This document shows positions 894-52,546 of a stretch of DNA of 64,000 nucleotides, in pieces. The DNA comes from a virus: the IMG/VR virus record IMGVR_UViG_3300025466_000012, positions 124,001 to 188,000 of that record. One strand, given 5' to 3'. The translations under genes and the position numbers were made by a program. The notes beneath the pieces are model-generated. The model did no database searches. It worked only from the letters and a program-made list of their open reading frames with translations, and was not told the origin of the DNA. Position 1 is the first letter of the stretch. Each line of letters opens with the position of its first letter.

Positions 894-896
894 CTT

Positions 897-2782: not shown

Positions 2783-2811
2783 TTGACACAAATAGATTGT
2801 TGTTATATACT
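2783..2811 (+). promoter_or_regulatory. Sigma70-type promoter of ABC-GNAT operon
   Basis: TTGACA (2783-2788, perfect -35) and TATACT (2806-2811) separated by 17 bp, 29 bp before the ATG at 2841. It should drive the three overlapping genes 2841-5043. Confidence 0.85.
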
Positions 2812-2840
2812 GTAGTTCTTGTCAACTAAAAAGGTGCGTT

Positions 2841-5043: not shown

Positions 5044-5044
5044 C

Positions 5045-5073
5045 TTGCTATATCAGTGAAAACACTATATAAT
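5045..5073 (+). promoter_or_regulatory. Sigma70-type promoter of rubrerythrin gene
   Basis: TTGCTA (5045-5050) and perfect TATAAT (5068-5073), 17-bp spacer. A full ribosome-binding site AAGGAGG (5094-5100) follows before the ATG at 5106. Confidence 0.8.
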
Positions 5074-5105
5074 CATTGTTGTAACTTTAACACAAGGAGG
5101 AGCAT

Positions 5106-5543: not shown

Positions 5544-5598
5544 GCATAATGTGTACAGGCCAGTCAACAAAATCACGGTACAAGGCGTTATATACTGT

Positions 5599-5904: not shown

Positions 5905-5916
5905 GTACTAGCACCC

Positions 5917-6813
5917 ATGCAACGATATCATACCATACAGCTGGATCCTGCCACCAGCCAGCCTGTACTAGAAAAATGGCAACACTATCCAGCTCCCACA
6001 CTGGAGATCACCACCATTGTGCCCGAAAAGGGCTGTGTGGTTGACTGTGTGTTCTGTCCACAACGGTTGCTGGAAAAGACCTATACCGGCACCAGGATCC
6101 TGACTCTGGATGCTTTTAAAACCCTGATCGATCGTGTGCCCACGGATGTGAGAATCACGTTTGCTGGCTTTACCGAACCCTGGATGAACCGCTATGCCAC
6201 CGACATGGTGGAATATGCCTGGGAAGAAGGTCATCCGGTCAGCGTTTTTACCACTGGCATTGGTGTCAGCATACAAGACCTTGAACGCTTGGTCACTATA
6301 CCTTATCATGGCAATCCCAATGGTGGATTTGTGTTGCACCTGCCTGACAGCGAAATGCTGGCACGACATCCGATCACGCCTGGCTACATCACCACCCTGA
6401 CCTGGTTGCGAGACAACCATCATAAAATTAAAAATTTCAGTACCATGACCATGGGCGGCCAAGTACACGAATCTGTGCGCCATTTGTTTGACTGGGCTCC
6501 CAGCTTTGACATGTGGAGTCGATCCGGCAATCTCATGCGAGAAGCCTTGCTCAAACCCAGACTGGTCAATCTCAAGGATAGGTGGAACGCGGTATATCAC
6601 GAGGATCAAAACAGGACCTGTGGTTGCGTGGAACATTTGTATCACAATGTGCTGTTGCCCAATGGCGATGTGAGCCTGTGTTGCATGGACTACGGACTTG
6701 ACCATATATTGGGAAATCTGTACACCCAGACCTATGAACAAATCATACCCGTGGCGCAGAGTTGCCACGATCTTTGCAACTACTGTGAAAACGGTGTGAA
6801 TCCAGTCAAATAA
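5917..6813 (+). CDS. Radical SAM enzyme with SPASM-like C-terminus
   Basis: 298 residues. The canonical [4Fe-4S]/SAM motif CxxxCxxC is at Cys40, Cys44 and Cys47 (CVVDCVFC). The C-terminal part holds a Cys-rich segment (CGCVEHLYH, LCCMDYGLDHILGNLY, CHDLCNYC) like the auxiliary cluster-binding SPASM/twitch regions of enzymes that modify peptides or sugars. The GNLYTQTYEQI stretch is typical of those domains. It is followed by a small basic ORF (6829), an ATP-grasp ligase and a glycosyltransferase-like gene, so a peptide- or sugar-modifying pathway is possible. Substrate unknown. Confidence 0.85.
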   Translation: MQRYHTIQLDPATSQPVLEKWQHYPAPTLEITTIVPEKGCVVDCVFCPQRLLEKTYTGTRILTLDAFKTLIDRVPTDVRITFAGFTEPWMNRYATDMVEYAWEEGHPVSVFTTGIGVSIQDLERLVTIPYHGNPNGGFVLHLPDSEMLARHPITPGYITTLTWLRDNHHKIKNFSTMTMGGQVHESVRHLFDWAPSFDMWSRSGNLMREALLKPRLVNLKDRWNAVYHEDQNRTCGCVEHLYHNVLLPNGDVSLCCMDYGLDHILGNLYTQTYEQIIPVAQSCHDLCNYCENGVNPVK

Positions 6814-6828
6814 CCCAAAGGGCATGAC

Positions 6829-6960
6829 ATGAAAGTACAGAAACTGATCAAAAAATTAAATCGGGCCGAAGTCGAACACAATCTTGAGCGAGTCAAGAAA
6901 CTGTGGTTCCGGTTGCTGAAAAAGAGCCTCAAGCACAAAAATACCGGATCTGCACAGTAG
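6829..6960 (+). CDS. Small basic peptide between radical SAM and ATP-grasp genes
   Basis: 43 residues, highly basic (MKVQKLIKKLNRAEVEHNLE then KKLWFRLLKKSLKHK). The ATG at 6829 follows AAAGGG at an acceptable distance and the ORF ends six bases before the next start, so it fits the operon exactly. Its position between a SPASM-like radical SAM enzyme and an ATP-grasp ligase is where a modified-peptide precursor is often found, but no leader/core boundary is evident and it may simply be a small DNA- or RNA-binding protein. Confidence 0.5.
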   Translation: MKVQKLIKKLNRAEVEHNLERVKKLWFRLLKKSLKHKNTGSAQ

Positions 6961-6965
6961 GCCTT

Positions 6966-7850
6966 ATGACAGTATTGATCTTGACCAAACTGGATCGCAA
7001 CGAATACGAAAGCAATCGCCTGATTGAAAGCTTCAAAGCCAAAGGAATCGAGTGCATGGCTGCGCACCCAGACGACTTTGATATCGTGGTTGATCGAGAC
7101 ATACACAGAGGCATCAAATATCGTGGACAAGATCTGGCTTTGCCCAAGCTGGTCCTGGTGCGACTGGGAGCTGGCATCTTGCCGTTCCAGCTGGCCGTGA
7201 TACGACATTTTGAACAGGCCGGAGTACCTTGCGTAAACGGAAGTCTGCCAATCGAAATTGTCAAGGACAAATTGCGAAGCAGCCAGATCTTGAGCCGTGC
7301 CGGTATACCCATACCCAATACCATGATGGTGCGTATGCCCATCGATGATGGCCTGGTCAAGGAAAATATTGGATTTCCCTGCGTGGTCAAGGTGGTCACT
7401 GGTTCATACGGAGAAGGAGTTTATCTGTGTGAACGACAGCGCGACTATAGGAAGCTGATGGAGTTCATCGACAATCTGGGCAACAAAAAAACCATGATAG
7501 TACAACGGTACATGGGATATCGACCAGGCGAAGATCTACGTGTGTTGGTCATAGGCGGCAAAACTGTAGGAGCCATGCTCCGTACTGCGCCTGATGGTGA
7601 CTTCCGAGCCAATATCACCAATGGCGGCTCCGGCAGCCGTTATGACATGACCGAAGAAATCGATTATCTGGCACGAGAAACAGCCCGGGCCATGAATCTG
7701 GACATAGCTGGAATTGATCTTTTGTTCACCGAGACCGGATTTGTGGTGTGTGAAGCCAACAGCAATCCGGGATTTGCCGGATTTGAAAACTATTGTGACG
7801 TGGATGTGGCCGATCTCATAACTGACTATGTACGTTTCAAGATACAATAA
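6966..7850 (+). CDS. RimK/LysX-type ATP-grasp ligase
   Basis: 294 residues from the ATG at 6966; upstream in-frame codons overlap the small ORF and are less likely. ATP-grasp landmarks are visible: PCVVKVVTGSYGEGVYL (ATP-binding loop), a central VQRYMGYRPGEDLRVLVIGG, and the metal-binding end IAGIDLLFTETGFVVCEANSNPGF. This arrangement matches RimK-like enzymes, which join amino acids (often Glu) to a carboxylate of a protein or small molecule. It follows a radical SAM enzyme and a small basic peptide. The substrate is unknown; modification of a host protein such as ribosomal S6 is one option, modification of the neighbouring peptide another. Confidence 0.85.
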   Translation: MTVLILTKLDRNEYESNRLIESFKAKGIECMAAHPDDFDIVVDRDIHRGIKYRGQDLALPKLVLVRLGAGILPFQLAVIRHFEQAGVPCVNGSLPIEIVKDKLRSSQILSRAGIPIPNTMMVRMPIDDGLVKENIGFPCVVKVVTGSYGEGVYLCERQRDYRKLMEFIDNLGNKKTMIVQRYMGYRPGEDLRVLVIGGKTVGAMLRTAPDGDFRANITNGGSGSRYDMTEEIDYLARETARAMNLDIAGIDLLFTETGFVVCEANSNPGFAGFENYCDVDVADLITDYVRFKIQ

Positions 7851-7873
7851 TATAGATACGACTGCCACAGGAT

Positions 7874-8818
7874 ATGTCTGAAATCAATTCTGTATGTGAT
7901 CGCCTGGTCTATCACATGAGACCTGCAGGTCTCGGAATCATCATCATTGAACTCAGTGTGTTGTTGGACACCGGACGAGCCATACAGGCTGTGGTCCCTA
8001 CCGCCAATCACCTGTTGTATGATTTGAAACGTATTTTCAAGATCACCGATGACAGACTGATTATTTCACATGATCCTGACAGTGTCAATGATCCGGCCAG
8101 CTGTGACCGGATGAAAGATTATTCACCTTATTTTACCGCAGACTCAGTGAACTTGTTTGGCCAGGACTACCGGGTGGGACAACGCAACAAACCCTGTGTG
8201 GGCTTGGCCATGCATCATGCCGGCGGGCATATTGGCAACAACAATGGTGATCCGTTGGGCGAGCTGAGAGACGTCAAAGATTTTCCTTACAACAAATTTG
8301 CCACCTATGACACTTACAGCCGTATCATCAAATTGGTGACCGATATGGGCTATGACATAATCACACTCAACAGTCACAATGTGAGTCTCGAACACAAGGC
8401 TCAGTTGCTGAACAATCTATGTGATGTGGTGATCGGTTACGAAGGCGGAGTCATGCAACTGGCCCACACCTTGAAGGTGCCGGCCATTGTTTTGCCCTGG
8501 GCAGCCTGGATCGATGGACACACTTCGTGGAAAGATGGTTCTCCCTGGGACCCTGATCGCATAGAAGCACACACCTATCATCTGGATCGGCGCACCTATT
8601 TCCCGAACAGCCAAGAAGAAATCTGCTCATGGGGTCCAGAACAGTTAAAATCGATCATAGATGCACTGTATCGGGAGCAAGGCAACAACATAATGTTCAC
8701 AGACCGTGTACGCACAGATCTGGAAAATCTCAGATTCTATCTGGACGGAACTCCGGAATTTTTGGGGGAATTGCCCGACATGACCAAGTCATTCATCCGT
8801 GCCCATATACTGAATTAA
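7874..8818 (+). CDS. Glycosyltransferase-like (GT-B / family 9-like) protein
   Basis: 314 residues. The C-terminal half has CDVVIGYEGGVMQLAHTLKVPAIVLP, resembling the donor-binding segment of family 9 heptosyltransferases (a Gly-Gly after an acidic residue, then an A-x-x-L-x-x-P element). The N-terminal half (AMHHAGGHIGNNN) could be the acceptor side. This is a fold-level guess; no full family signature is visible. It closes the 5106-8818 group and is followed directly by an inverted repeat and a new promoter. A role in host surface or phage DNA glycosylation is possible but unproven. Confidence 0.6.
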   Translation: MSEINSVCDRLVYHMRPAGLGIIIIELSVLLDTGRAIQAVVPTANHLLYDLKRIFKITDDRLIISHDPDSVNDPASCDRMKDYSPYFTADSVNLFGQDYRVGQRNKPCVGLAMHHAGGHIGNNNGDPLGELRDVKDFPYNKFATYDTYSRIIKLVTDMGYDIITLNSHNVSLEHKAQLLNNLCDVVIGYEGGVMQLAHTLKVPAIVLPWAAWIDGHTSWKDGSPWDPDRIEAHTYHLDRRTYFPNSQEEICSWGPEQLKSIIDALYREQGNNIMFTDRVRTDLENLRFYLDGTPEFLGELPDMTKSFIRAHILN

Positions 8819-8842
8819 TCTGTTGTAAAAACACAACAGATT
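8817..8842 (+). terminator. Inverted repeat between operons, probable terminator
   Basis: Perfect 10-bp stem AATCTGTTGT (8817-8826) / ACAACAGATT (8833-8842) with a 6-nt loop. It begins in the stop codon of the upstream gene and ends in the -35 box of the next promoter. There is no T-run, so termination efficiency is uncertain. Confidence 0.55.
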
Positions 8843-8869
8843 GACCGAAATAGCATAATCGGTTATAAT
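8841..8869 (+). promoter_or_regulatory. Sigma70-type promoter
   Basis: TTGACC (8841-8846) and TATAAT (8864-8869) with a 17-bp spacer, seven bases before the ATG at 8876, so the transcript would start at or next to the start codon. The spacer contains a degenerate CCGA...TCGG inverted repeat reminiscent of the palindrome in the promoters at 9127 and 9748. Confidence 0.85.
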
Positions 8870-8875
8870 AGCAGT

Positions 8876-9106
8876 ATGAATACCAATAATGTAGCCACAA
8901 AAATCAAATGGACTGCCACCGCGATCACTCTAGCAGGTGCGGTACTGGCCAGTGTAAATATCTACCCTCTCAGTGCTGTGACACTAAATCTGGGCAGTTT
9001 TGTCTTCCTGATCTGGAGCGTCATGATACGCGACCGAGCCATGATCACGGTAAATGGCGGACTGTTGGCAATCTATACCGTTGGTCTGGCTATCAAACTG
9101 TTGTAA
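8876..9106 (+). CDS. Small integral membrane protein
   Basis: 76 residues with three probable transmembrane helices: WTATAITLAGAVLASVNIY, LNLGSFVFLIWSVMI and GGLLAIYTVGLAIKLL. The sequence resembles small phage and bacterial membrane proteins with an inner NIYP motif. No enzyme motif. It lies very close to its promoter, so the mRNA may be nearly leaderless. Function unknown; an inner-membrane role during takeover or superinfection exclusion is conceivable but only inferred. Confidence 0.7.
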   Translation: MNTNNVATKIKWTATAITLAGAVLASVNIYPLSAVTLNLGSFVFLIWSVMIRDRAMITVNGGLLAIYTVGLAIKLL

Positions 9107-9124
9107 ATATGCAACAGACTTTTT
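9098..9124 (+). terminator. Intrinsic terminator
   Basis: Stem CTGTTG (9098-9103) / CAACAG (9112-9117) followed by ACTTTTT (9118-9124). It overlaps the end of the membrane-protein gene and lies immediately before the promoter at 9127, repeating the hairpin-then-promoter arrangement at 8817. Confidence 0.65.
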
Positions 9125-9180
9125 GGTTGACCCGAAATGACATTTCGGTTATAATAGTAGTATAGTTAATAACAAGGAGC
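9125..9180 (+). repeat. 56-bp promoter/leader direct repeat, copy 1
   Basis: Identical over 56 bp to 9746-9801. It contains -35, -10, the start region and the ribosome-binding site AAGGAG. The spacer holds the palindrome CCGAAATG-A-CATTTCGG (9132-9148), a likely operator. Confidence 0.9.
9127..9155 (+). promoter_or_regulatory. Sigma70-type promoter with palindromic spacer
   Basis: TTGACC (9127-9132), 17-bp spacer, TATAAT (9150-9155). The 8-bp perfect inverted repeat with one central base lies exactly between the two boxes, where a bound dimeric regulator would compete with RNA polymerase. It drives 9187-9741. Confidence 0.9.
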
Positions 9181-9186
9181 AATAAA

Positions 9187-9357
9187 ATGACGGTAAAAGA
9201 AATGATCGAAGCATTATCCAAGTTACCAATGGACGCTGAGTTGATCATCACAGAAGAAGGTTACTATTCCTATACAGCTTATACGGATGCTTTTTTTCCC
9301 GAGAAATACAAAGATGGAAAGTCTTATGTAATCGGCCATTCTACACAAGATTATTAA
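9187..9357 (+). CDS. Small hypothetical protein (56 aa)
   Basis: 56 residues from the ATG at 9187, six bases after the AAGGAG of the repeated leader. Starts MTVKEMIEALSKLPMDAELI followed by ITEEGYY, a pattern of small phage proteins with a VxExIExLxxLPxDAxxxI N-terminus. Function unknown. Being first behind the operator-bearing promoter, it is probably early and tightly regulated. Confidence 0.7.
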   Translation: MTVKEMIEALSKLPMDAELIITEEGYYSYTAYTDAFFPEKYKDGKSYVIGHSTQDY

Positions 9358-31369: not shown

Positions 31370-32038
31370 ATGCGATTAAAAAGTTTTGGATGCAGTTTTA
31401 TATTTGGATCAGAGCTGGCCGATGATGGTCGAGAATTGTTATTCGCCACCAGCAGTCAGTTGACCTGGCCAGCGCACCTGGCTCGGCATCTAGGACGAAC
31501 CTACGAATGCCATGCCCGACCCGGGTCAGGCAATCTACAGATCTCGGAATATGTGCTGAACCATGCGGCCGATGCTGATGCCAATGATTTGTTTGTGATT
31601 GGTTGGACCTGGATCGACCGTTTTGATTATTACCCGGCCAATCCTCCACAACACAAACGCTTGCAACCCTGGCGCACCATCATGCCCATTGATTGCGACC
31701 CCACAGCCCAGGTCTACTGGCGTGATCTACATTCAGAATATCGAGACAAATTTGCTGCTCTCAGCACCATCAAGTTGGTGATTGACACCTTGCAACAAAA
31801 ACATATTCCATTTGTCATGACCTATATGGATCGATTGCTGTTTGATCAAAGGTGGCATACGTCACCGGCGGTGCTTGACCTACAGTCTTGTATCAAATCT
31901 CACATGCGCCTGTTTGAAGATCAAACGTTTTTAGAGTGGAGTCGTGCCCATGGATATCCTGAAGGTGCGGCCAGTCATCCGTTAGAACAGGCTCACAGAG
32001 CAGCTGCTGACATCATGATCCGGGCTTTCGATAACTGA
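31370..32038 (+). CDS. SGNH/GDSL-type hydrolase-like protein
   Basis: 222 residues. N-terminal SFGCSFIFGSELAD corresponds to SGNH block I (Gly-x-Ser), the block GSGNLQISEYV contains the block-II/III-like Gly and Asn, and a C-terminal HPLEQAH supplies the His. SGNH enzymes are esterases, lipases or acyl-transferases acting on lipids or glycans. Many phages carry related proteins that modify surface polysaccharide. Its last 26 bases overlap the minus-strand methyltransferase gene. Confidence 0.72.
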   Translation: MRLKSFGCSFIFGSELADDGRELLFATSSQLTWPAHLARHLGRTYECHARPGSGNLQISEYVLNHAADADANDLFVIGWTWIDRFDYYPANPPQHKRLQPWRTIMPIDCDPTAQVYWRDLHSEYRDKFAALSTIKLVIDTLQQKHIPFVMTYMDRLLFDQRWHTSPAVLDLQSCIKSHMRLFEDQTFLEWSRAHGYPEGAASHPLEQAHRAAADIMIRAFDN

Positions 32039-32744
32039 AATACAAGCGTTCGTTGCCGTCTTTTTTGAACTCCAGCAACTGTAGATCGAACTGTTCGGCA
32101 AATTGGTTCACAATTTCAAATGACCACGGAAATATGTCCACATAAGGTCCGCTCTTGTGAGCTATGCCCGGATTGGCTCTGAGATAAAAATAACCACCGG
32201 GGGCTAATAGATCCACACAGTGGGCGAATCTGGCTTCAATTTCGTCTCGACTGTTGAAGTTTATGCTTCCTAGTGCCATGATATGATCGTAACGTTGGCT
32301 GACCCGATATTCCAGGATGTCCACTTCATAATCGGCACAACTGTTGTAAGGATCGATTCCGATCAGATTGGGTATGCGTCCCCGGAACGGATGGTAACCA
32401 CAGCCCACATCCAGCACAGCTCGAGGATCGGCAGCAGTGATACGTTCGGCCAGGCCCCAGCCGGTATAGTCGTAGTCGCCGGTTCTGGGTTTCCACATCT
32501 CACGGAAGAATCTGTCGGTATAGCGTTGGCTGAGATCATCAACTATTTGTTCCAAGGTTCCACGATATTCGCACGGCAGTCCCAGCTCGTGTTCAATCGC
32601 ATCCTTGAATTTTCTATAACGAGCCGGAGTCCAAGGCAACGCATCCACTACAGTACCGGCATTGATCACGATGTTTTTGTATTTGGGTAAAGAGAAAGTT
32701 GATTGCAAATTTTTTGTAATTAGATTAAAAATTTTAGTATTCAT
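32013..32744 (-). CDS. Class I SAM-dependent methyltransferase (minus strand)
   Basis: 243 residues from the ATG at 32744, preceded by GGAAAA on the minus strand; a longer frame to 32813 would almost collide with the divergent gene at 32836. SAM-binding motif I is VLDVGCGYHPFRG, followed by an acidic end of strand two (LIGIDPYNS), a motif IV-like HIMALGSINF, and LLAPGGYFYLRANP. The target is unknown. As one of two minus-strand genes, and convergent with the SGNH-like gene, it appears to be a separately acquired unit. Confidence 0.82.
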   Translation of the reverse strand: MNTKIFNLITKNLQSTFSLPKYKNIVINAGTVVDALPWTPARYRKFKDAIEHELGLPCEYRGTLEQIVDDLSQRYTDRFFREMWKPRTGDYDYTGWGLAERITAADPRAVLDVGCGYHPFRGRIPNLIGIDPYNSCADYEVDILEYRVSQRYDHIMALGSINFNSRDEIEARFAHCVDLLAPGGYFYLRANPGIAHKSGPYVDIFPWSFEIVNQFAEQFDLQLLEFKKDGNERLYFSYRKPGS

Positions 32745-32762
32745 ATTGATTTTTCCATTATC

Positions 32763-32770
32763 GATAAATA
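32763..32770 (+). promoter_or_regulatory. T4-type late promoter candidate
   Basis: GATAAATA in the divergent intergenic space, 65 bp before the ferritin-like ATG at 32836, which has AAGGAG as ribosome-binding site. Confidence 0.5.
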
Positions 32771-32835
32771 AATGTACAGAGAGATAAAAATTTTTACCTG
32801 GTCTGTAATTCATGATAACTATTTAAGGAGATTTT

Positions 32836-33531
32836 ATGAACGCAAAACAATTTGTAACCAAGATCGTGGCCGACAACCAGGCTCTGTTTCAAGCCAGCCA
32901 GCACAATGTAAAGGCCTACTTTGATTCAAAACCAGCTCAAGAAGAACTGGTCGCACACTTCGTTGGTCGTATGGTCAATGAAAGAATGAACATGGTCGAA
33001 ATCAGCCAGGCCATTGCCAACATGCCCGCCGATACAGATCCAGTAGAACTGCAACTGTTGACCAAACAAGCCCAGGACGAAGCCAATCACTTTCGTATGG
33101 TCAAGGAAGTCATTGAGCATATCCAGGGCAGTCCGGTTGATGTCGAAGCTGCCATTGCCGCTGAAACAGCCAAACCCACTGCCAAAGGTGCCGGTTTGCT
33201 GGCCAAGTACGATGCCGAATCAGACCCATTGGCCTTGGCTGCATATCAATTGGTTGCTGAGGGTCGTGCCGAAGCAGTATGGAACACCATGGCCGAATGT
33301 TCACCTGATGCTTTTATCAGAAAAACCTATGCCAAGATTGCCAGAGACGAAGGTTTCCACAGCAAGATCGGTGCTAGAAAATTGCAACAGTTGTTGAAGA
33401 CCGAAGCTGATTTTGCTCGTACCCAGACCTTGGTAGAAAATCTACGTCGAGACCTGTATGAAATTTCATGCCGCAACACCGTGGCTGCTGACGCCGGCAA
33501 AGCACTGGTAGCGGACGCCTACGGTTGGTAA
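32836..33531 (+). CDS. Ferritin-like diiron protein
   Basis: 231 residues, all-helical. Two ExxH metal-binding pairs are visible: QAQDEANHFRMV (Glu82, His85) and IARDEGFHSKIG near residue 178, with supporting Glu residues in VNERMNM (Glu49) and VAEGRAEAVW, giving a four-helix diiron site as in ferritin-like oxidases or oxygenase components. It lacks the size and motifs of ribonucleotide reductase beta or PaaA. Late promoter motif and strong AAGGAG suggest good expression. It could be part of the iron/oxygen defence set (rubrerythrin, SOD, Dps) or an oxygenase in the accessory island. Confidence 0.75.
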   Translation: MNAKQFVTKIVADNQALFQASQHNVKAYFDSKPAQEELVAHFVGRMVNERMNMVEISQAIANMPADTDPVELQLLTKQAQDEANHFRMVKEVIEHIQGSPVDVEAAIAAETAKPTAKGAGLLAKYDAESDPLALAAYQLVAEGRAEAVWNTMAECSPDAFIRKTYAKIARDEGFHSKIGARKLQQLLKTEADFARTQTLVENLRRDLYEISCRNTVAADAGKALVADAYGW

Positions 33532-33532: not shown

Positions 33533-34552
33533 TTGAAAAAATCCACAAACCTAATATATTATTTTGGTGGGTGTTACGGGACCTTTGTTGAATGGTCCTG
33601 TAACTTTTTTTCAAAGGGTGCTGACTTAACTGATTTGCCTTTTACCGAAACCGGAAGCAGTCATGACTTTCATGGTGGGTTGTTAACGCCGAATATCTTA
33701 CCTAATTATGTAGAATCTACCAGAACAGATCGGTATGCAAGATGTCATCCTGGAACGTTTAAAGGGTTGTTTGAAAAAACCAACTCAAACCAGGTGATAC
33801 ATAATAATTTATACCGTGACACAATGAAATTAGAATTATCATATCTGTCAGATAATTTTAAAAAAATATTAATTTTATACCCTACTCAAGATACTCGGTT
33901 ATGGTACGAGAACAATCAGTTGCAAAAAGTTCTAATATCTGAATCAGACTATCAACTATACTTTGAACCAGCTGGGCTTTCTCGAGATTATATGAGAGCT
34001 GCAATGACCAAAGATCCCTTATCAAGATTTAAAATTATGCTTGAACAAGAATTAGATTCCAAAAATATTTCTCAATGGGGCAAACAGAATATATCGGATT
34101 TTGACGAATGGGAATTGAGAGAATTGTTGTCAATGTATTGGTTTAATCGCGATAAAGACCTATACACATGTTGTCCAGAACTAAAAACTAGTTTTCCTGA
34201 AATTAAATTTATTTCTATAGATAATTTCAAGAATAATTTTCAAAAGACTGTAATAGATTATTTGAACTATTTTGAAGTCGACATTGATCAAGATAAATTA
34301 TATCAATTGGATTTTGTAAAACAAGAATGGAATGCCGTACAGCATCATATCAATACGGATAGTTTGGTTAAAAAGATTATCAACAGCATAATATCACAAC
34401 AAGAGTTTGAATGGGAACCGCTGACTATACTGGACGAAGCATACCTACAAAAATGTTTAGCAGATGCGGGGATTCAGATAAAATGCTACGAATTGAATAA
34501 GTTTCCAACAAACACCAAAGATTTTTTGCCATTGCTGGAATATACAGCATGA
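33533..34552 (+). CDS. AT-rich protein with sulfotransferase-like N-terminus
   Basis: 339 residues with a TTG start (33533) next to the upstream stop. The beginning (NLIYYFGGCYGTFVEWSCNF) resembles the phosphosulfate-binding loop of phage sulfotransferase-like proteins (xxGxxGTFxxxx), but a second PAPS motif is not clear. Base composition is more A/T than the flanking genes, suggesting separate origin. Coupled by ATGA to the amidotransferase gene at 34549. Call is tentative. Confidence 0.5.
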   Translation: MKKSTNLIYYFGGCYGTFVEWSCNFFSKGADLTDLPFTETGSSHDFHGGLLTPNILPNYVESTRTDRYARCHPGTFKGLFEKTNSNQVIHNNLYRDTMKLELSYLSDNFKKILILYPTQDTRLWYENNQLQKVLISESDYQLYFEPAGLSRDYMRAAMTKDPLSRFKIMLEQELDSKNISQWGKQNISDFDEWELRELLSMYWFNRDKDLYTCCPELKTSFPEIKFISIDNFKNNFQKTVIDYLNYFEVDIDQDKLYQLDFVKQEWNAVQHHINTDSLVKKIINSIISQQEFEWEPLTILDEAYLQKCLADAGIQIKCYELNKFPTNTKDFLPLLEYTA

Positions 34553-35109
34553 AGATAGGACTTACTCAACGAGTCCTGATGTTCAAGGAACGGGCGTATG
34601 ACAGCCTGGGTCAAGAATGGTATTCTTACTTGAAAAGTCATACGCTTGTTGCTGTCCCTAATAGGTTGGATCAAGATTTTGACAAACTGGCAGACGAGCT
34701 AGATCTGCTGGTTATCACTGGTGGTGATGATCGCTTGATCAGACGCACCACAGAACTACGGTTGTCCACCGCACTAATGAAACAGCAGAAGCCCATCCTG
34801 GGCGTGTGTCACGGCGCATTTCTGTTGACCGATGTGCTAGGCGGCACGATAGGTCGCAAAGACGGACACCGTGGCGGGGTCAATCACCAGATCCGGTATC
34901 GTGATAAAATGCAACAGGTCAACAGCTATCACGGGCTCGCAATCAAAACAGCTCCAGCATCAGCTGATGTATTGGCTGTGGACGCCGACGGTGACTGCGA
35001 AGCCTGGATCAGTGGCACTGTAGCAGCAGTGGTATGGCATCCCGAACGCATGACAGATCCCTGGTTGCCGGATGAAATACAAAGTTTATTATTCAAGGAA
35101 GATCTATGA
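34549..35109 (+). CDS. Class I glutamine amidotransferase-like protein (peptidase C26 type)
   Basis: 186 residues with ATGA overlap upstream. The class I GATase triad is visible: Cys87 in LGVCHGAF, His164 and Glu166 in VWHPERM. LLVITGGDD is the oxyanion strand. This matches gamma-glutamyl-hydrolase/PuuD-like enzymes that cleave gamma-glutamyl amide bonds or supply ammonia. No synthetase partner domain is present. It heads a chain of overlapping genes (34549-38242), so it may act on a small molecule made by that island. Confidence 0.85.
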   Translation: MKIGLTQRVLMFKERAYDSLGQEWYSYLKSHTLVAVPNRLDQDFDKLADELDLLVITGGDDRLIRRTTELRLSTALMKQQKPILGVCHGAFLLTDVLGGTIGRKDGHRGGVNHQIRYRDKMQQVNSYHGLAIKTAPASADVLAVDADGDCEAWISGTVAAVVWHPERMTDPWLPDEIQSLLFKEDL

Positions 35110-35339
35110 AATTTCATGAAACAAAAATGCGTAGCCTGGTCAAAGGCATCTGTTGGAAAATCATTGGCGGTATTATCACCGCCTTTATCGTGTACTATTT
35201 GGCCACTCTAGGTTACAGCGCGACCAAGACTGCCACCGTGGTATTGGTATGTCAATTCACCATCAACACTGTTGCTTTTTTTGTGCATGACCGTATCTGG
35301 AATAGAATCCAATGGGGTCGGGAGATAAGCCAAGCATGA
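35106..35339 (+). CDS. DUF2061 small membrane protein
   Basis: 77 residues with two transmembrane helices (ICWKIIGGIITAFIVYYLAT and TATVVLVCQFTINTVAFFVH) and the DUF2061 end HDRIWNRIQWGR. The starting sequence KMRSLVKGICWKIIG is typical of the family. Members sit next to sulfate-activation (cysNC) genes in many bacteria; here an APS-kinase-like and sulfotransferase-like genes lie within 4 kb, which supports a sulfur-related context. Overlaps both neighbours as ATGA. Confidence 0.88.
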   Translation: MKFHETKMRSLVKGICWKIIGGIITAFIVYYLATLGYSATKTATVVLVCQFTINTVAFFVHDRIWNRIQWGREISQA

Positions 35340-36307
35340 AAAAATTATTGTTGATATTGTTTTTTCCTGTGTTGGCCTTGGCCTGGGAACCCATAAAACC
35401 AGTCACTGTGATCGTGGGCAACACGCCTGGAGCCGGTAACGAAATCGCATTCCGCAAACTGGCCGACATAGTACAACGACACAATCCCAAGTTTGTGTAT
35501 GTGCTACAGAACATGCCTGGCGCCGATTCGGTCATTGCTCAAAATCGATTCTTTGAAGCATCCGCAGATGGTTACACCATCAACCTACCCAGCCATATGA
35601 GCACCTATGTGACCAATGACATCTGGGAAGCAAAAATAAAGAAATGGGACTATGACGATTTTCTGGATGTCATGACCATGGGCAAGAGTCCTTTGGTGCT
35701 GGTGGCCTGGCCAGACAGTGCAGTACGAACTCCGCAAGATTTTGTACATCTAATTGCCACCACTCGACAACCCATCAATGTGGCCGTAGGCGGAGGAGCA
35801 CACAGAACTGCATTTGAATATCTCATGGAACAGGGACATGGCAATCGAGATCTGGTCAAACCAATCAAGTTTAATGGTCCCTTGCCGGCTGTTTCCAGTG
35901 TGGCACAATATGATGGCAAAACCGGTACCGAATTTGGCATCATGCCTATCGCTGTAGCTCGTTCCTTGGTGGATGCTGGACGTGTGCGGGCCATTGGATT
36001 CACTGGCACACGCAAGATGGCGCAATATCCTGCTGTGCCATTGTTGAACACAGTAGCACCTGGCATCAATGTGTATGCGGCTTGGAGTCTACAATTACCG
36101 TTCGCTGCAGGACCCAACATTGAAGAATGGTACGAGCGAGAATTTGGAGCAGCAGCTCGCAGCGCAGAATACCAAGCCTGGTGCGAACAAAATGTGGTAT
36201 TTGTGGAAGAAAATGAACTGCATCCGGCCGGACTGCGACGACACATCAAAGAACTGCGTGCCACATTCTTACCGATCTTGCGCAAAATTGATTTGGGACG
36301 CGAATGA
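35336..36307 (+). CDS. TctC/Bug-type periplasmic substrate-binding protein
   Basis: 323 residues from the ATG at 35336 (ATGA overlap). Signal peptide MKKLLLILFFPVLALAW. The mature part follows the tripartite tricarboxylate transporter receptor pattern: VTVIVGNTPGAGNEIAFRKL, VLQNMPGADSVIAQNRF, ADGYTI, VGGGAHRTAFEY and GRVRAIGFTG. Bug proteins bind carboxylates (citrate, aspartate, others) in the periplasm. No TctA/TctB membrane genes are present, so it would need a host transporter or act as a binding/sensing protein. A phage-encoded copy is unusual; it sits in an operon with sulfotransferase- and oxygenase-like genes. Some standard ligand-loop residues may differ, so ligand is not predicted. 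Confidence 0.85.
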   Translation: MKKLLLILFFPVLALAWEPIKPVTVIVGNTPGAGNEIAFRKLADIVQRHNPKFVYVLQNMPGADSVIAQNRFFEASADGYTINLPSHMSTYVTNDIWEAKIKKWDYDDFLDVMTMGKSPLVLVAWPDSAVRTPQDFVHLIATTRQPINVAVGGGAHRTAFEYLMEQGHGNRDLVKPIKFNGPLPAVSSVAQYDGKTGTEFGIMPIAVARSLVDAGRVRAIGFTGTRKMAQYPAVPLLNTVAPGINVYAAWSLQLPFAAGPNIEEWYEREFGAAARSAEYQAWCEQNVVFVEENELHPAGLRRHIKELRATFLPILRKIDLGRE

Positions 36308-36918
36308 AATACATATTCATGGCCGGAGCACCCGGCAGCAAATGGTCCAGCGTGAGCAAAAACATCTACTACAGTCCTGACATAGATCGCAGCGACTATA
36401 CCGATGCTCGCACGTATCACCACGACGCATCAGGTACCATGGAATTGATGCATCTGGGTGCTTATTTTGATCCCGGTATGGAATTTGGCGCATGGTTTGA
36501 TCGCTTGAGCCAACATACTCGAGACCAGTGCGAAGCAGAATTCGATCGACCGTTTTCGGGCACAGGTACACGCATCATCAAGAGTCATGTGTTTTGCTAT
36601 CATTTGGATTTTATCAAGCAGACCTGGCCTGATTGTCCGATCATTCTGGTGCATCGCGGTGATGATGCCAGTCTGGGTTGGTGGGTGCGATGCGGGCACT
36701 TTGACATCACATATCCTGATTATCACGATTATTATCGAGACCTGCGCCACATGGCCAGAGAAATACAAAGACAAAATAGTGCCATGCGACCACGCTGGGA
36801 ACATGCCAGCAGTGTTGCGGACAATGTGACCTTGTGTGAGCAGATAGGTATCGCAACACCGCCCACAGAGTACAGACAAAATTACGCAGACAATAAAATA
36901 AGGGTAAAAGTACTATGA
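36304..36918 (+). CDS. Sulfotransferase-like protein
   Basis: 204 residues, ATGA overlap with the TctC-like gene. A possible 5'-phosphosulfate-binding loop is FMAGAPGSKWSSVS near the start, and the 3'-phosphate-binding element could be IILVHRGDDASLGWW (Arg and Ser of the R-x(n)-S motif). These are the two PAPS-contact regions of sulfotransferases. Acceptor unknown. Next to a 2OG oxygenase-like gene and a second sulfotransferase-like gene, with an APS-kinase-like gene 1.3 kb downstream. Confidence 0.68.
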   Translation: MKYIFMAGAPGSKWSSVSKNIYYSPDIDRSDYTDARTYHHDASGTMELMHLGAYFDPGMEFGAWFDRLSQHTRDQCEAEFDRPFSGTGTRIIKSHVFCYHLDFIKQTWPDCPIILVHRGDDASLGWWVRCGHFDITYPDYHDYYRDLRHMAREIQRQNSAMRPRWEHASSVADNVTLCEQIGIATPPTEYRQNYADNKIRVKVL

Positions 36919-37592
36919 CAACACCACAAAGCAGTTATGACAAATTACGAGAAAAAAGTTCGTATCACTTTGATACCACCAAGATAGATCCCCGGTACGA
37001 CACCGTGATTGAATTGGGGCACATCGACTGTGATTTTGCCCAAGATGTTGCAGAGATTGTTGCTGGTAGCAAACCTGCAAACTGGGAAACTCGCGGATTC
37101 AAGGGTGAACACACTGACGTGCCCAAGCCCGAACTGGCCGACGAAGAATACGATCTTGAACGAGTAGGCATAGATCCCAAAACAATCATTACAAATTTAA
37201 ACTGGAAGCTGAGTCCACGATTGCAAAAGATCAGCGACCTGTTTGGCATGCAAGATACCATGAACCGTATTCATGTGCAAATGCCCGGACAACTATGGAA
37301 TCTGCATATTGACAAGTTGTACAAATGGTTTCCAGAGCAGCCGGATCAGGTGCTGAGATTGTTCGTACAACTCACAGACTGGCAACCTGGGCAGTTCTGG
37401 CAGTATGGTAACTACAACTGGAGCCAATGGCGGGCTGGTAACGTGACCACGTTTGACTGGCAAAATGTTCCGCACTCGACCGCCAATGCCGGATTCCATC
37501 CCAGGGTCACTTTGCAAATTACCGGCATCAAGACACCGGCCACGGAAGCATTTTTGAACTTGTTAAAAACTGCCAGCCCGTTGACTGTATGA
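36915..37592 (+). CDS. 2OG-Fe(II) oxygenase-like (Asp/Asn hydroxylase type) protein
   Basis: 225 residues, coupled on both sides by ATGA. A double-stranded beta-helix iron site is suggested by HxD in LWNLHIDKLYKW, a distal His in VPHSTANAG and an Arg in FHPRVTLQITG that would hold 2-oxoglutarate. The region HVQMPGQLWNLHID resembles aspartyl/asparaginyl beta-hydroxylase-like proteins. It probably hydroxylates a small molecule, peptide or sugar. The sandwich position between two sulfotransferase-like genes suggests it acts on the same substrate. Confidence 0.75.
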   Translation: MTTPQSSYDKLREKSSYHFDTTKIDPRYDTVIELGHIDCDFAQDVAEIVAGSKPANWETRGFKGEHTDVPKPELADEEYDLERVGIDPKTIITNLNWKLSPRLQKISDLFGMQDTMNRIHVQMPGQLWNLHIDKLYKWFPEQPDQVLRLFVQLTDWQPGQFWQYGNYNWSQWRAGNVTTFDWQNVPHSTANAGFHPRVTLQITGIKTPATEAFLNLLKTASPLTV

Positions 37593-38242
37593 AAAAACTA
37601 CTGATTGTGACTGGGCCGCAAGGATCTGGCAACCATTTTTTCAGTCGTGTGCTCAGCAGGCACCCAGATGTGCAAGGCTGGTCAGAACTGCTGGACAACT
37701 ATTGGATACCCAGTGATCAAGAACCCTTCGCTGAATATTGGATCGATCCGTCAAAATTACAGGAAAATCATTTTGACGGAGCCGACTATCATCTGGCCAA
37801 TGTAAGCTGTCCATTCTTCTTTGACGGGGTACGACATGTGCCCGATATTTTGGGTGTGGCCCAGCAGGCCAGCAGTTTTGGGGTGCAGGTTGAAATAGCA
37901 ATTATTGTACGAGACCAAAATATCAATCAGTTGCAACAGTTGCGAGTACGCAAAGAACATACCACACCCATTGCGCAAAAATACTATTATGAGACCCTGT
38001 TGCCATCGTTGTTTCCGGTACACTTCCTGGATCACGAAGCGTTCTTTTTGCACACCACACACTATCTCAAATGGGTCAGTCATGTATTAAAATTTCCTAT
38101 CGCCTGGTCCGATCCTGACATCATGCAGTTTATCAGTGAAGATGCCAACCACAAATATGTGCGATCCATTGATTCACACTGGTTGGATGAAGTGATACTG
38201 GCCGGTTGTCAGCCCAACCGAGGGCAAAGACTACGTGACTAA
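37589..38242 (+). CDS. Sulfotransferase/P-loop family protein
   Basis: 217 residues. N-terminal LIVTGPQGSGNHFFSRVLSR is a sulfotransferase-type phosphosulfate loop (GxQGSGNxxxxRVLxxHP), followed by HPDVQGWSEL. IAIIVRDQNINQLQQLRV may be the 3'-phosphate-binding region. Related proteins in phages are annotated as sulfotransferase-like. The C-terminus overlaps the APS-kinase-like gene by 8 bases, so a PAPS user and a PAPS maker may be translated together. Confidence 0.72.
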   Translation: MKKLLIVTGPQGSGNHFFSRVLSRHPDVQGWSELLDNYWIPSDQEPFAEYWIDPSKLQENHFDGADYHLANVSCPFFFDGVRHVPDILGVAQQASSFGVQVEIAIIVRDQNINQLQQLRVRKEHTTPIAQKYYYETLLPSLFPVHFLDHEAFFLHTTHYLKWVSHVLKFPIAWSDPDIMQFISEDANHKYVRSIDSHWLDEVILAGCQPNRGQRLRD

Positions 38243-38663
38243 ACGCATATTGATCATGGGTCTGCCCGGGGCCGGCAAAACTACCTTGGCCGAAAGTCTT
38301 CAAGAATGTTTATGGTATGAAGGACGCACCGTGAGTTGGTTCAATGCTGATCTAGTGCGTCAACAGCACAACGATTGGGATTTTAGTACAGCAGGACGGA
38401 TCAGACAAAGCCAACGCATGCAACAGTGTGCTGCAAACGCTACCACGGACTACGTGATCTGTGATTTTGTGGCTGCGTTGCCCGAGCAACGAGACCTGTT
38501 TGATGCCGACTGGGTTGTGTGGGTAGATACTGTATCCCAAGGACGCTATGCAGATACCAACCGGGACTTTGTGGATCCTGATCATTATGATTTTAGGGTG
38601 ACCGAACAAGACAGCCAACGCTGGGCAGAAATAATAGCGTATAAAATTGTAACAGCAACCTGA
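38235..38663 (+). CDS. APS-kinase-like P-loop kinase
   Basis: 142 residues with a GTG start inside the previous gene. P-loop GLPGAGKTTLAESL (9-22), then SWFNADLVRQQHNDWDFS, GRIRQSQRM and ICDFVAALPEQRDLF, an order typical of adenylylsulfate kinases and their phage relatives (DGDxxR region, then the RxxR lid). APS kinase phosphorylates adenylylsulfate to PAPS, the donor for sulfotransferases. It is shorter than cellular CysC (about 200 aa), so a related nucleoside or sugar kinase is possible. Last gene before a late promoter and the lysis cassette. Confidence 0.72.
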   Translation: MTKRILIMGLPGAGKTTLAESLQECLWYEGRTVSWFNADLVRQQHNDWDFSTAGRIRQSQRMQQCAANATTDYVICDFVAALPEQRDLFDADWVVWVDTVSQGRYADTNRDFVDPDHYDFRVTEQDSQRWAEIIAYKIVTAT

Positions 38664-40700: not shown

Positions 40701-41132
40701 ATGGGATTTGTAAAACGCATAGAACAAGCAGTGGCCGATCGGCTCAAGGCAACATTTTTGGATTCAAAAAAAATCGTGGATCTGATCGAAGACGAAATCA
40801 AACAGCTAGAAGACAAATTGGCAGATGCACACAGCCGTGCAGCAGCATCCGCGGCCACAGCCAGAGACCATGCTATCGCGGCTGCTGCCCATGCCAAAGA
40901 ATATGCCGACCAATTGGCACAAGAAGTGATCAACGCCGCTGATCGTGCCGACAAACACCTGGCCAATGTTGCATCACAGATTCAACCCACAGTTGATGTT
41001 CCAGTTGCTACCACAGTTGATGTTCCAGTTGCTACCACAGTTGATGTTCCAGTTGCTACCACAGTTGATGTTCCAGTTGCTACCACAATTGATGTTCCAG
41101 CCGACACTCAGGTTACTAACACAGTTACATGA
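40701..41132 (+). CDS. Coiled-coil protein with octapeptide repeat tail
   Basis: 143 residues. The first 95 are amphipathic, Ala-rich helix (IVDLIEDEIKQLEDKLADAH, AAAHAKEYADQLAQEVI). The tail is four full copies of TVDVPVAT plus one degenerate copy, encoded by a 24-bp tandem repeat, ending QVTNTVT. It lies between lysis-cassette genes and the 3-TM holin. No family is recognised; the repeat tail may act as a length-variable spacer. Confidence 0.62.
   Translation: MGFVKRIEQAVADRLKATFLDSKKIVDLIEDEIKQLEDKLADAHSRAAASAATARDHAIAAAAHAKEYADQLAQEVINAADRADKHLANVASQIQPTVDVPVATTVDVPVATTVDVPVATTVDVPVATTIDVPADTQVTNTVT
40989..41105 (+). repeat. 24-bp tandem repeat, about five copies
   Basis: Four identical units at 40989-41012, 41013-41036, 41037-41060 and 41061-41084, then a degenerate fifth unit. 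In frame with the gene, encoding TVDVPVAT. No spacers, so not a CRISPR array. Confidence 0.95.
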
Positions 41133-48794: not shown

Positions 48795-48812
48795 CTGCAT
48801 GGGTTTTGACAC

Positions 48813-48842
48813 AAAGCCGCTTTCTCAGCGGCTTTTTGTTTG
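48813..48842 (+). terminator. Intrinsic terminator
   Basis: Stem AAAGCCGCT / AGCGGCTTT with loop TTCTC, followed by TTGTTT. The clearest rho-independent terminator in the window, ending the 46522-48794 unit. Confidence 0.9.
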
Positions 48843-48844
48843 GC

Positions 48845-48852
48845 GGTAAATA
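48845..48852 (+). promoter_or_regulatory. T4-type late promoter candidate
   Basis: GGTAAATA just after the terminator and four bases before the ATG at 48857. It would start a new late unit running from 48857 to about 58690. Confidence 0.55.
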
Positions 48853-48856
48853 CTGT

Positions 48857-51800
48857 ATGAATATTCTCGAGCTTGATGCCTATAACCTTGACGATGCAGT
48901 CAAATTCCATAATCGTTTGAATCCACGCCTGTGGACCAAGGATGAACATCTCCAACCCCAAGTGCGTGAACGTCTGTTGGAAATAGCCGACGATTTTAGA
49001 CAGTTCCTGGGCGTGAAGGATCTGGCTGTACAAGACATCACCATCAGCGGCTCCAACGCAGCCTACACTTATACTCCCAATAGCGATATTGATTTGCATT
49101 TGGTAGTTGACATGCCCGACGACGAAGTGTATCGAGAACTGTTTGCAGCCAAAAAATATCAATACAACGACGAGCATGACATCAAGATCGGCGGTGCCGA
49201 TGTGGAACTGTATGTACAGGACAGTACAGAACCACACATCAGCCAAGGTTTATACAGTGTGCGTGACAACCAATGGTTGCGGGTGCCCAAACGAGTCAAG
49301 AGCGTGATGGACGACAGCAGTACCCGACACAAGTTCGAGTCCGTGGGTCGAGCCATTGAACGTGCTGTCAAAAGCGGTGACCCAGCCAAGATGACTCGCT
49401 TGATCAACAAAATCAAGCGCATGCGACAGACCGGTCTGGAAAATCACGGCGAGTTCGGACCTGAAAATCTCACGTTCAAACTGTTGAGAAATCAGGGCTT
49501 GATCAAGCAGTTGTACACAGCTCGAACAGCTGCGCATGATCAAGAATTCAGTCTGACCGAACAGGAACCTCGTAAACCATTTGTGTATGGATTCCGACAG
49601 GTCAGAGAAGCCAGTAGTCCGGATGGTGTCAGCCCCGAAACCAAGATGTTCCTCAGCGAAGAACCACCCATGGACGATGAAAGTGTGCTCAAAGACTTTG
49701 TGGAATTTTGTGTTCGCGAATTGAAAATTGACAGCTTGCCTGTCATCAAACTGCGTCGAGATCCGCAATGGCCAGTCATGCATAAAACATTTGGTCGCTA
49801 CATCAACGATCGAGATCTACTGGAAGTGGCCTGGGGCCAACGCCATCTCATGGATGTGTTGCGCACTGTGGCACACGAACTCACACACCGACATCAGCAC
49901 GAGCGAGATGGTGCCAAGATGGACCACACAGCTGGTGAGACCGGAAGTCCGTGGGAAAACGAAGCCAATGCCCGTGCCGGCATACTCATGCGCGACTATG
50001 GTCGACTGCATCCGGAATTGTTTGACGCTGGGACAGCTGAGAATCTAAAAGAAGCAACTGGTTACATACCCACTGCGGCCGAAAAGAATGATCCCAGATT
50101 CAAGATGGCTCTCAGCGTCGATGTACGTCCAGGAGCCTTGGGCCAAGCAGCCAATGCCTTCATGTTAAACACCGACAGCCAAGGTCATCCGCAGGAATTG
50201 AGACCCGACGGCCTGGTTGATCGCATGCAGGAACAATTGAACCAGTTCAAACAAACCGGAGTCTTGAGTGAAACAGTGGAGCTGGACGAAGTCAAAATGA
50301 GTCCAACTTCGTTGCGACAATTTGCCGACAGCCCTGCGGCCGAAGGCATACGTGCCGGCTTTGAGGCTGAGTTGATATTCGCAGGCCTGGGCGAGCCCGA
50401 CTATGGCGAAACCGAGCCTGATTATGACATGGATGAACGTGCCTACAGCATACAACAGGTCTTGGATTTTTTCAGCAACGACGAATGGGGCTACGGCCTG
50501 AGTGATCGGCAGCGTGACCGGCTGGAAGAACAACTGGACGAAATGTACATAGAATGGCGAGACGAACAGATACGCCAAGATTTTCAGCACGACGGCGAGG
50601 ACCTGATCACCGAGTTATGGTTAGAAGACCGACCCATGATTGAACGTATCCATGATGCCTTGACAGATGGCCTGGGCTTGTCCGACGATGAAGCCGACGC
50701 TGTGATAAAATTACACTCTAGAAGAGAACGTGGTGAGATCAAAGGATCAGAAATGAGCGAGGCTGAATTGGAAATGGCCGCTCAATACAGTGAAGCCCGT
50801 GGCATAGCCGACGACGTGCTGGAAGAGGATGTACAAGGCAGCATAGACAACCAAGACAGCATTTACGATCAAGCCTTAGACAATTACCGCCTCAACTACT
50901 CAGGCAATGACGACAGTTTTTTCAGTGACGTGGGCTTGCGCTACATGAGCGACATCGAAAACCAATTTAGACTGGACTGGCCTTACATGACCACTACAGG
51001 TGGTGACAACGAAGGCGGCTACAGTGAAAGCAGTGCCCAGGCGCTGGCCGACAGTTTGAAATCGGACCTGGGGGTCAAGATCAAAGTGTCAGGTGGTTAT
51101 CACAGTACCACCAGAGATGAACATTCGTGGATCTTTGAACCCGACTCAAGTTTGACTGCCGATGACAGCGACGACATGCCGGTAGAGATAGTGAGTCCGC
51201 CCATGCCGTTAAAAGAGTGTTTGAAAAAAATGGAAGAGTTTTTTGCCTGGGCCAAATCACACGATGCCTATGCCAACAGCTCAACCGGATTCCACATGGG
51301 TGTGAGCCTGCCCACTCAGTTCAACGATGATGTGGATTTTGTCAAACTGATCCTGTTCCTGGGTGACAAGTATGTGTTGGAACAGTTTGGTCGCGACAGT
51401 GTCAACTACTGTGCCAGTGCCATGAAAAAATTAAAAAACAGGATCGGCAACGATCGAGGCACAGCCATAGCAGATGCCATGACGTTGATGAAAAAGAATC
51501 TGTTGGAACTGGCACACAGGAGCTTGGCCAGCAATCAGGGATTTGGCAAATATACCAGCATCAATCCCAAGGACAAATACATTGAGTTTAGATCAGCCGG
51601 TGGTGAAGACTACTTTCAAGATATCGACAAGTTAAAAAATACCCTGTTGCGTTATGCCCGAGCCATGAGCATAGCCGGCAATCCAGCTGCGGACCGCAAT
51701 GAATACTATAAAAAATTATACAAACTGATCAGTCCTGACACACAAGATCCAACTCTGTCCTTGTTTGCACGCTACAGTGCCGGCGAACTCAGTGCAGAAC

Positions 51801-52546
51801 AACTGAAACGGGACTGGGCTGAATTGGCCTTGGCAAAAGAACGTCCCAAGAAAGGACCGTATGATGATACTGAATGGGAAGCCGTTGACCCTGATACCGG
51901 AGAGGTATTGGCCACCACACGAGATTTCAGCATAACCAATGCTACCAATTATTTCCGCCAAGATTTAAAGTTGGCTCGTTTCCAAGTACGCGAGAAGGAA
52001 CCTGACCTGGTCAGTCCCCGTGCCAAATTGGCCAAGCGTATCAAACAACCTAAGCCACAAGCCAAAGATGATCAACAAGATGCAGAACAACTACAGGCCC
52101 GTATAGATCCCGAGTCAGCACAGATTCCAAGAAACTGGGAGTTTTATAGTGCAGACAGCGGCACTGTAATTGATCGTGTAGATGGAATCAATCTGATGCA
52201 GGCCAATGCAGTCAGAGCCGATGTAGTACGTAGATATCGACTGCCAGACGAGAGTGTGCGTATGCGTAGCGTGCCCACTGCTCAGTCAGCTGAACGAGCT
52301 AGAGCTAGAGTACAGGATATTGAACCCGACGTAGCACAAAACTTTGATCGACCCGAGGGAATTCAATCAACTGTGGCGGGTGTTCCGGCCTGGTACATAT
52401 ACAACACCCGCAATGATGCCATAGTAAGAACATTCTTCCAACCCACACGTGACGCAGCCGAAGTCTATGCCAGTGGGTGGTTAAGAAACAACGGTGTTCA
52501 AGATACCACCGGGTATCAAGTAAGACCGGCAATGGAGACACCGTGA
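48857..52546 (+). CDS. Giant multi-domain protein: nucleotidyltransferase, metalloprotease, amidoligase-like
   Basis: 1229 residues from the ATG at 48857. (1) Residues 1-110: the starting motif LDDAVKFHNRLNPRLW and a polymerase-beta-type nucleotidyltransferase site GSNAAYTYTPNSDIDLHL (65-82). (2) Residue 339 on: zinc protease HExxH in TVAHELTHRHQHERDG, then a downstream Glu in WENEANARAG. (3) About 495-930: AGFEAELIFAG, STGFHMGVSLP (near 812) and IEFRSAGGEDYF (near 909) resemble a glutamine-synthetase-fold amidoligase. (4) C-terminal repeats of the WEFYSADSGTVID type. The order suggests a polyprotein or a giant injected enzyme. Next gene starts in its stop codon (GTGA). Confidence 0.75.
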   Translation: MNILELDAYNLDDAVKFHNRLNPRLWTKDEHLQPQVRERLLEIADDFRQFLGVKDLAVQDITISGSNAAYTYTPNSDIDLHLVVDMPDDEVYRELFAAKKYQYNDEHDIKIGGADVELYVQDSTEPHISQGLYSVRDNQWLRVPKRVKSVMDDSSTRHKFESVGRAIERAVKSGDPAKMTRLINKIKRMRQTGLENHGEFGPENLTFKLLRNQGLIKQLYTARTAAHDQEFSLTEQEPRKPFVYGFRQVREASSPDGVSPETKMFLSEEPPMDDESVLKDFVEFCVRELKIDSLPVIKLRRDPQWPVMHKTFGRYINDRDLLEVAWGQRHLMDVLRTVAHELTHRHQHERDGAKMDHTAGETGSPWENEANARAGILMRDYGRLHPELFDAGTAENLKEATGYIPTAAEKNDPRFKMALSVDVRPGALGQAANAFMLNTDSQGHPQELRPDGLVDRMQEQLNQFKQTGVLSETVELDEVKMSPTSLRQFADSPAAEGIRAGFEAELIFAGLGEPDYGETEPDYDMDERAYSIQQVLDFFSNDEWGYGLSDRQRDRLEEQLDEMYIEWRDEQIRQDFQHDGEDLITELWLEDRPMIERIHDALTDGLGLSDDEADAVIKLHSRRERGEIKGSEMSEAELEMAAQYSEARGIADDVLEEDVQGSIDNQDSIYDQALDNYRLNYSGNDDSFFSDVGLRYMSDIENQFRLDWPYMTTTGGDNEGGYSESSAQALADSLKSDLGVKIKVSGGYHSTTRDEHSWIFEPDSSLTADDSDDMPVEIVSPPMPLKECLKKMEEFFAWAKSHDAYANSSTGFHMGVSLPTQFNDDVDFVKLILFLGDKYVLEQFGRDSVNYCASAMKKLKNRIGNDRGTAIADAMTLMKKNLLELAHRSLASNQGFGKYTSINPKDKYIEFRSAGGEDYFQDIDKLKNTLLRYARAMSIAGNPAADRNEYYKKLYKLISPDTQDPTLSLFARYSAGELSAEQLKRDWAELALAKERPKKGPYDDTEWEAVDPDTGEVLATTRDFSITNATNYFRQDLKLARFQVREKEPDLVSPRAKLAKRIKQPKPQAKDDQQDAEQLQARIDPESAQIPRNWEFYSADSGTVIDRVDGINLMQANAVRADVVRRYRLPDESVRMRSVPTAQSAERARARVQDIEPDVAQNFDRPEGIQSTVAGVPAWYIYNTRNDAIVRTFFQPTRDAAEVYASGWLRNNGVQDTTGYQVRPAMETP

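Follow-up and report, generated by a model that had tools for sequence, protein, structure and literature searches.

Phage sulfotransferases have been described as isolated auxiliary genes with no assigned role, and in OM43 phages Sulfotransfer_3 and 2-oxoglutarate/Fe(II) oxygenase (2OG) genes are known as single auxiliary genes (PMC10580990). The literature that we searched describes single genes only, and no coupled sulfotransferase-2OG unit, fusion of the two, or wider module was found in it. Here, we analyzed bases 124001–188000 of the 199,683-base uncultured virus record IMGVR_UViG_3300025466_000012 (this 64,000-base stretch is referred to below as the window, and its numbering is used throughout). 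Four overlapping genes of the window were initially annotated as a sulfation module composed of two sulfotransferase-like genes (ST and ST2), an oxygenase gene (2OG), and a gene similar to adenosine 5′-phosphosulfate (APS) kinase (KIN). We propose, with a probability of about 50%, that these genes belong to a tailoring module conserved among viruses, whose sulfotransferase-like chemistry would be directed at one molecule.

The best fold matches of ST and ST2 are the tyrosylprotein sulfotransferases TPST1/2 (5wrj and 3ap3), with which they share the 5′ P-loop and the 3′-phosphate Arg. Unlike TPSTs, the phage proteins are short (204 and 217 amino acids for ST and ST2, respectively), are ~10 to 14% identical to them, and carry Trp or Gln in place of the 3′-phosphate Ser, which in canonical enzymes using 3′-phosphoadenylyl sulfate (PAPS) is located eight residues after the Arg. 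KIN resembles APS kinase (PF01583; CysC and the PAPSS kinase domain): Walker A, the catalytic Asp, and the Arg/Phe/Arg of the N-terminal APS-binding half can be aligned, and we take their roles to be those known from APS kinases. In contrast to APS kinase, the C-terminal half of KIN is replaced by a short RYxDTNxxFxxP segment. Another system relevant here is the Campylobacter O-methyl phosphoramidate pathway, where a glutamine amidotransferase (GATase) releases CDP-amidate, which is phosphorylated by an APS-kinase relative.

Results

Coupling of the ST and 2OG genes

The four plus-strand open reading frames (ORFs), ST (36304–36918), 2OG (36915–37592), ST2 (37589–38242), and KIN (38235–38663, GTG start), have exactly the coordinates and the consecutive overlaps of 4, 4, and 8 bp that were initially annotated, and ST also shares 4 bp at its start with the end of the TctC gene before it. 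All four are conserved in other viruses. Relatives of ST are encoded at 41 other viral loci, those of KIN at no fewer than 80, and those of ST2 by at least 501 candidate stretches; the sets retrieved comprised the 41 ST loci, at least 80 viral KIN loci, and 80 of at least 501 confirmed ST2 stretches. A megablast search with 12 kb against isolate phages gave no match.

The predicted 2OG-Fe(II) site was borne out by conservation: H131-x-D133, H187, and R197 are invariant in 19 homologs, and the HxD...H motif with a distal Arg is present in 49 of 51 distinct 2OG proteins. The 2OG protein has no Pfam match and weakly matches a cyanophage protein annotated as a 2OG-Fe(II) oxygenase (E = 1e-4).

Among 89 distinct ST proteins, 43 have a 2OG gene directly downstream, with a 4-bp overlap in 39 of these unfused pairs, and one more is fused to it. 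The arrangement follows ST relatedness. With a threshold of 50% identity to the window ST, 44 of the 54 proteins at or above it had 2OG directly downstream or fused, and 0 of the 35 more distant proteins did. The natural ST-2OG fusion (locus L108) is 433 amino acids long, and its junction is also spanned in a second assembly (L207). The adjacency or fusion of ST and 2OG in 44 of 54 close relatives is the strongest evidence that the two proteins share a reaction.

Modeled folds and conserved residues of ST and ST2

Profile searches of the Protein Data Bank (PDB) with the ST, 2OG, and ST2 alignments returned nothing relevant, so structure models were needed. The ST model (pLDDT of 95.8) had TPST2 bound to 3′-phosphoadenosine 5′-phosphate (PAP) as its top PDB match (3ap3; Foldseek E = 0.031, probability of 0.97). 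For the ST2 model (pLDDT of 90.8), the top eight PDB matches were all TPSTs, the best being 5wrj (E = 2.4e-6, probability of 1.00). On the evidence of these matches, the modeled sulfotransferase fold is secure for ST2 but only weakly supported for ST. The sole Pfam family matched by ST and its relatives, below the cutoff, is Sulfotransfer_3, and the protein A0A6J5LXF1 in BFVD, 64% identical to ST, is annotated as “Sulfotransferase family.”

The PAPS-type loops initially noted in both proteins are kept family-wide. The 5′ motif G.PGS.WS recurs in 88 of the 89 distinct members of the ST family, and the ST2 family P-loop is GPQG[SA]GNH; a 5′ phosphosulfate-binding P-loop is thus recognizable in both, in variant sequences. 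Invariant residues are G8-P10-G11-S12, K93, H95, and R118 in ST and GPQG-GNH, R108, and Q116 in ST2. The 3′-phosphate-binding Arg, whose site was assigned from spacing, is invariant in both families. Judging by these residues, the P-loop, K93/H95, and R118 of ST fit a sulfotransferase. A further gene, at 59177, had also been called sulfotransferase-like; it had no Pfam, PHROGs, or NCBIfam match, the loci that were fetched first contained no relative, and only a loose PITKHASTS string points to a sulfotransferase. The assignment was not confirmed.

The wider module

The four genes proved to be part of a larger unit: the actual module has roughly ten genes, including a methyltransferase-like gene (MT), a ferritin-like gene (FER), a GATase-like gene (GAT), and TctC, which the initial annotation had left out. 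It is composed of MT, FER, GAT, TctC (or TctA plus the TctC-like family c39), ST, 2OG, and ST2, with KIN, DUF2061, cupin, and further unclassified P-loop-like families added at some loci. It sits between PhoH-side genes and lysis genes and recurs on hundreds of viral contigs from aquatic sources. Within five genes of 120 ST2 genes, we found FER in 97 cases, ST in 78, GAT in 67, 2OG in 27, and KIN in 13.

MT (32013–32813, minus strand) forms the left edge of the module and is a divergent protein similar to S-adenosylmethionine (SAM)–dependent methyltransferases (Methyltransf_23, E = 0.0077, below the cutoff); it adjoins TctC/ST in about 45 loci. The remaining members are on the plus strand. FER (32836–33531), a PaaA_PaaC relative, is similar to diiron oxygenases/oxidases, and all six of its diiron ligands (E49, E82xxH85, E142, and E172xxH175) are invariant in 10 homologs. 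ST4 (33533–34552), an optional member with a P-loop-like N terminus and relatives in the same neighborhoods, has no Pfam match. GAT (34549–35109), similar to class I GATases and C26 hydrolases (Peptidase_C26, 1.9e-15), has an invariant Cys-His-Glu triad (C87, H164, and E166). The DUF2061 gene noted upstream of the four genes was recovered at 35106–35339 (PF09834, 1.4e-8) and codes for a small membrane protein. The TctC-like secreted solute receptor (35336–36307; PF03401, 3.3e-16) likely starts at 35336, where there is an ATGA overlap with DUF2061, though its ORF opens at 35312.

In several relatives, the TctC slot is held by TctA and c39 genes. A TctA permease and a TctC-like receptor gene lie beside ST in phages (L091, 3606–6117) and in a marine metagenome-assembled genome (MAG; L243, 8637–11139). 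No report of TctC together with a sulfotransferase in phages was found in the literature searched. Farther along the window, a 1246–amino acid ORF (48806–52546; record 175032–175310) contains an Amidoligase_2 domain (PF12224, 33.8 bits, above the cutoff); OM43 phages likewise pair an amidoligase with a GATase (PMC10580990). Downstream of the lysis genes, a protein with perfect VPVATTVD repeats is encoded at 40701–41132.

A bacterial chromosomal counterpart

When bacterial and archaeal genomes were scanned with the ST family, a 674,872-base chromosomal contig of Tahibacter aquaticus (L242, NZ_SNZH01000002.1) was found. On it, genes for FER, two proteins of the Sulfotransfer_3 type (the first matching at 1.8e-35, the second just short of the cutoff at 9.3e-6 and 26.5 bits versus 27), an arginine deiminase–family protein, a member of the sulfatase family, ST, and MT follow each other in one direction. 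FER, ST, and MT are 42, 38, and 34% identical to their window counterparts, respectively, and Tahibacter FER matches PF05138 (PaaA_PaaC) with 31.8 bits versus a cutoff of 28.5. The locus is like the phage module in bringing homologs of FER, ST, and MT together and unlike it in having the two Sulfotransfer_3-type genes, arginine deiminase–family, sulfatase-like, and radical SAM genes; the ORFs examined in it included no identifiable 2OG, ST2, or KIN. Since the Tahibacter ST is accompanied by sulfotransferase-family and sulfatase-like genes, the ST family is tied to sulfation independently of KIN. FER is present in 1 of 234 genomes of the Tahibacter family, and the chromosomal copy thus looks like an accessory acquisition. 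Together with the nearby radical SAM gene, the region 517–9235 is a candidate biosynthetic cluster. The scan also picked up ST, accompanied by TctA and TctC-like genes, in a marine MAG and in a Pelagibacter MAG that may be viral.

KIN and a possible role in PAPS supply

KIN is the only one of the four proteins with a match above the Pfam cutoff. The APS-kinase-like P-loop initially ascribed to it was supported by APS_kinase (PF01583, 36.9 bits versus a gathering threshold of 21.1), over model positions 4–90 of 152 only. The score against the full-length APS kinase equivalog TIGR00455 was 27 bits, with a cutoff of 138.7. The family profile also best matched APS kinases (2yvu, 3.8e-15) and not nicotinamide riboside kinases, and the similarity ended at about residue 90, i.e., in the N-terminal half. 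No match to ATP sulfurylase PF01747 was found in the record, the CysND type not having been searched for; APS could be supplied by the host.

KIN is encoded somewhere on 18 of 24 ST- or ST2-bearing records, a raw count with no background rate beside it. Across other phages, Pfam Sulfotransfer_2 or Sulfotransfer_3 genes were located within two genes of KIN in 4 of 33 contexts, versus 1.3 expected from random anchors, and 16 of 2000 resamplings gave an adjacency as high, a weak enrichment. ST was missing from seven of the nine records found through KIN first, so the idea that KIN is a dedicated partner of ST was not upheld. DUF2061 is the gene cluster that most often accompanies KIN in other viruses (14 loci). 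Other viruses also repeatedly have NodU-type carbamoyltransferase and radical SAM genes in the vicinity of KIN or ST2 (L007, L137, L143, and L158), and at L115 (5937–6748) kinase and nucleotidyltransferase domains are encoded by separate adjacent genes beside two ST genes.

Discussion

From the gene content, conservation, motifs, operon coupling, and ST-2OG fusion described above, and from the modeled folds, we infer how the tailoring module may work. The substrate, which may be a small metabolite, a peptide, or a surface glycan, would be oxidized by 2OG and, in parallel, by the diiron protein FER. The moiety that ST and ST2 would then attach to the new hydroxyl or to a neighboring group is most likely sulfate, with PAPS as its donor, and ST and 2OG would act as one working unit. 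MT and the GATase-type hydrolase would finish or prepare the product, while TctC/TctA probably import a precursor or cosubstrate. APS would come from the host, and KIN, as an optional member, may raise the supply of the 3′-phosphonucleotide.

Several observations weigh against this interpretation. The Foldseek match of ST (E of 0.03) is barely ahead of kinases, its Sulfotransfer_3 score is 17.7 bits at a cutoff of 27, and ST2 has no Pfam match at all. By profile comparison, ST and ST2 could be linked in sequence neither to each other nor to the Tahibacter Sulfotransfer_3 protein. The position eight residues after the 3′-phosphate Arg, assigned by spacing, holds not Ser but Trp in 86 of 89 ST proteins and Gln in 105 of the ST2 proteins scored; for this reason, PAPS is only the likely donor for both. 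Most ST genes have no KIN nearby, and 82 of 107 KIN homologs are fused to a C-terminal domain (HxGH/ISATKIR) similar to nicotinamide mononucleotide adenylyltransferases (NMNATs), which are its best PDB and NCBIfam matches.

These fusions, by which most KIN relatives differ from APS kinase, raise the possibility that KIN serves nucleotide or NAD metabolism as a kinase joined to an NMNAT-like enzyme and is a mere neighbor of ST in a variable genome region. We regard this as a serious contender, with somewhat less than an even chance of being correct. The frequent absence of ST from KIN-first records is consistent with it, as are the neighbors of KIN elsewhere: PTPS/QueD-type and other nucleotidyltransferase genes and, in Stenotrophomonas phage Bhz60 (L123, 8565–9741), a NADAR gene followed by the kinase-nucleotidyltransferase fusion, which hints at NAD or ADP-ribose metabolism. 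However, the closest kinase matches are APS kinases, KIN lies beside several sulfotransferase families more often than expected, and the window KIN has no nucleotidyltransferase domain. A separate nucleotidyltransferase that would complete it was likewise rejected, since none was found elsewhere in the record. Because the similarity to APS kinase stops at about residue 90, NMNAT fusions prevail, ST is often missing, and PF01747 was not detected, production of PAPS by KIN is not established. This role is the weakest part of the sulfation idea.

A reading of ST and ST2 as P-loop kinases or other nucleotide-binding proteins, rather than as sulfotransferase-type transferases, is unlikely. Kinases do follow closely behind the top match in the ST fold search, and adenylate and polynucleotide kinases come right after TPSTs for ST2. 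Yet, the top match of either protein is a PAP-bound sulfotransferase, the single Pfam family reached by ST and its relatives is, albeit below the cutoff, Sulfotransfer_3, and both proteins deviate at the Lys position of Walker A (GAPGSKWS in ST and GPQGSGNH in ST2). Even less probable is a donor that is another 3′-phosphonucleotide, as in the Campylobacter pathway, with the ST-like proteins being phosphoramidate-type transferases and MT methylating the product: while five of five GAT proteins have gamma-glutamyl-CDP-amidate hydrolase as their closest NCBIfam model (5e-18 to 5e-13), with the next model trailing well behind, KIN is APS-kinase-like, the module includes MT, and the changed 3′-phosphate site of ST and ST2 permits another donor, the GAT scores of 50 to 66 bits are far under the model cutoff of 250, KIN and GAT are often not found together, the Tahibacter ST has further sulfotransferase genes and a sulfatase-like gene as neighbors, and the complete pathway is rated low because no glutamine kinase–type (PPDK_N) domain was found in the record.

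The initial proposal of a sulfation module thus retains its sulfotransferase-like folds, its ST-tied 2OG, and its APS-kinase-family protein, though not an established source of PAPS, and sulfation overall is plausible but unproven. We would further suggest, tentatively and at odds clearly below even, that the product of this widespread viral cluster is a metabolite or virion decoration that is hydroxylated, methylated, and either sulfated or derived in another way from a 3′-phosphonucleotide. It would be made through two new minimal sulfotransferase-fold families with a noncanonical donor pocket, shared with a bacterial chromosome. An APS kinase gene next to a sulfotransferase gene calls for caution, and its relatives need to be checked before a PAPS pathway is read into the pair. 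The ST-2OG fusion allows the joint reaction to be tested with one protein, and Tahibacter, a culturable bacterium that echoes the module, is a tractable host for finding the product. The phage sulfotransferase genes considered here belong to a fixed multigene unit with an oxygenase, a diiron enzyme, and a methyltransferase.

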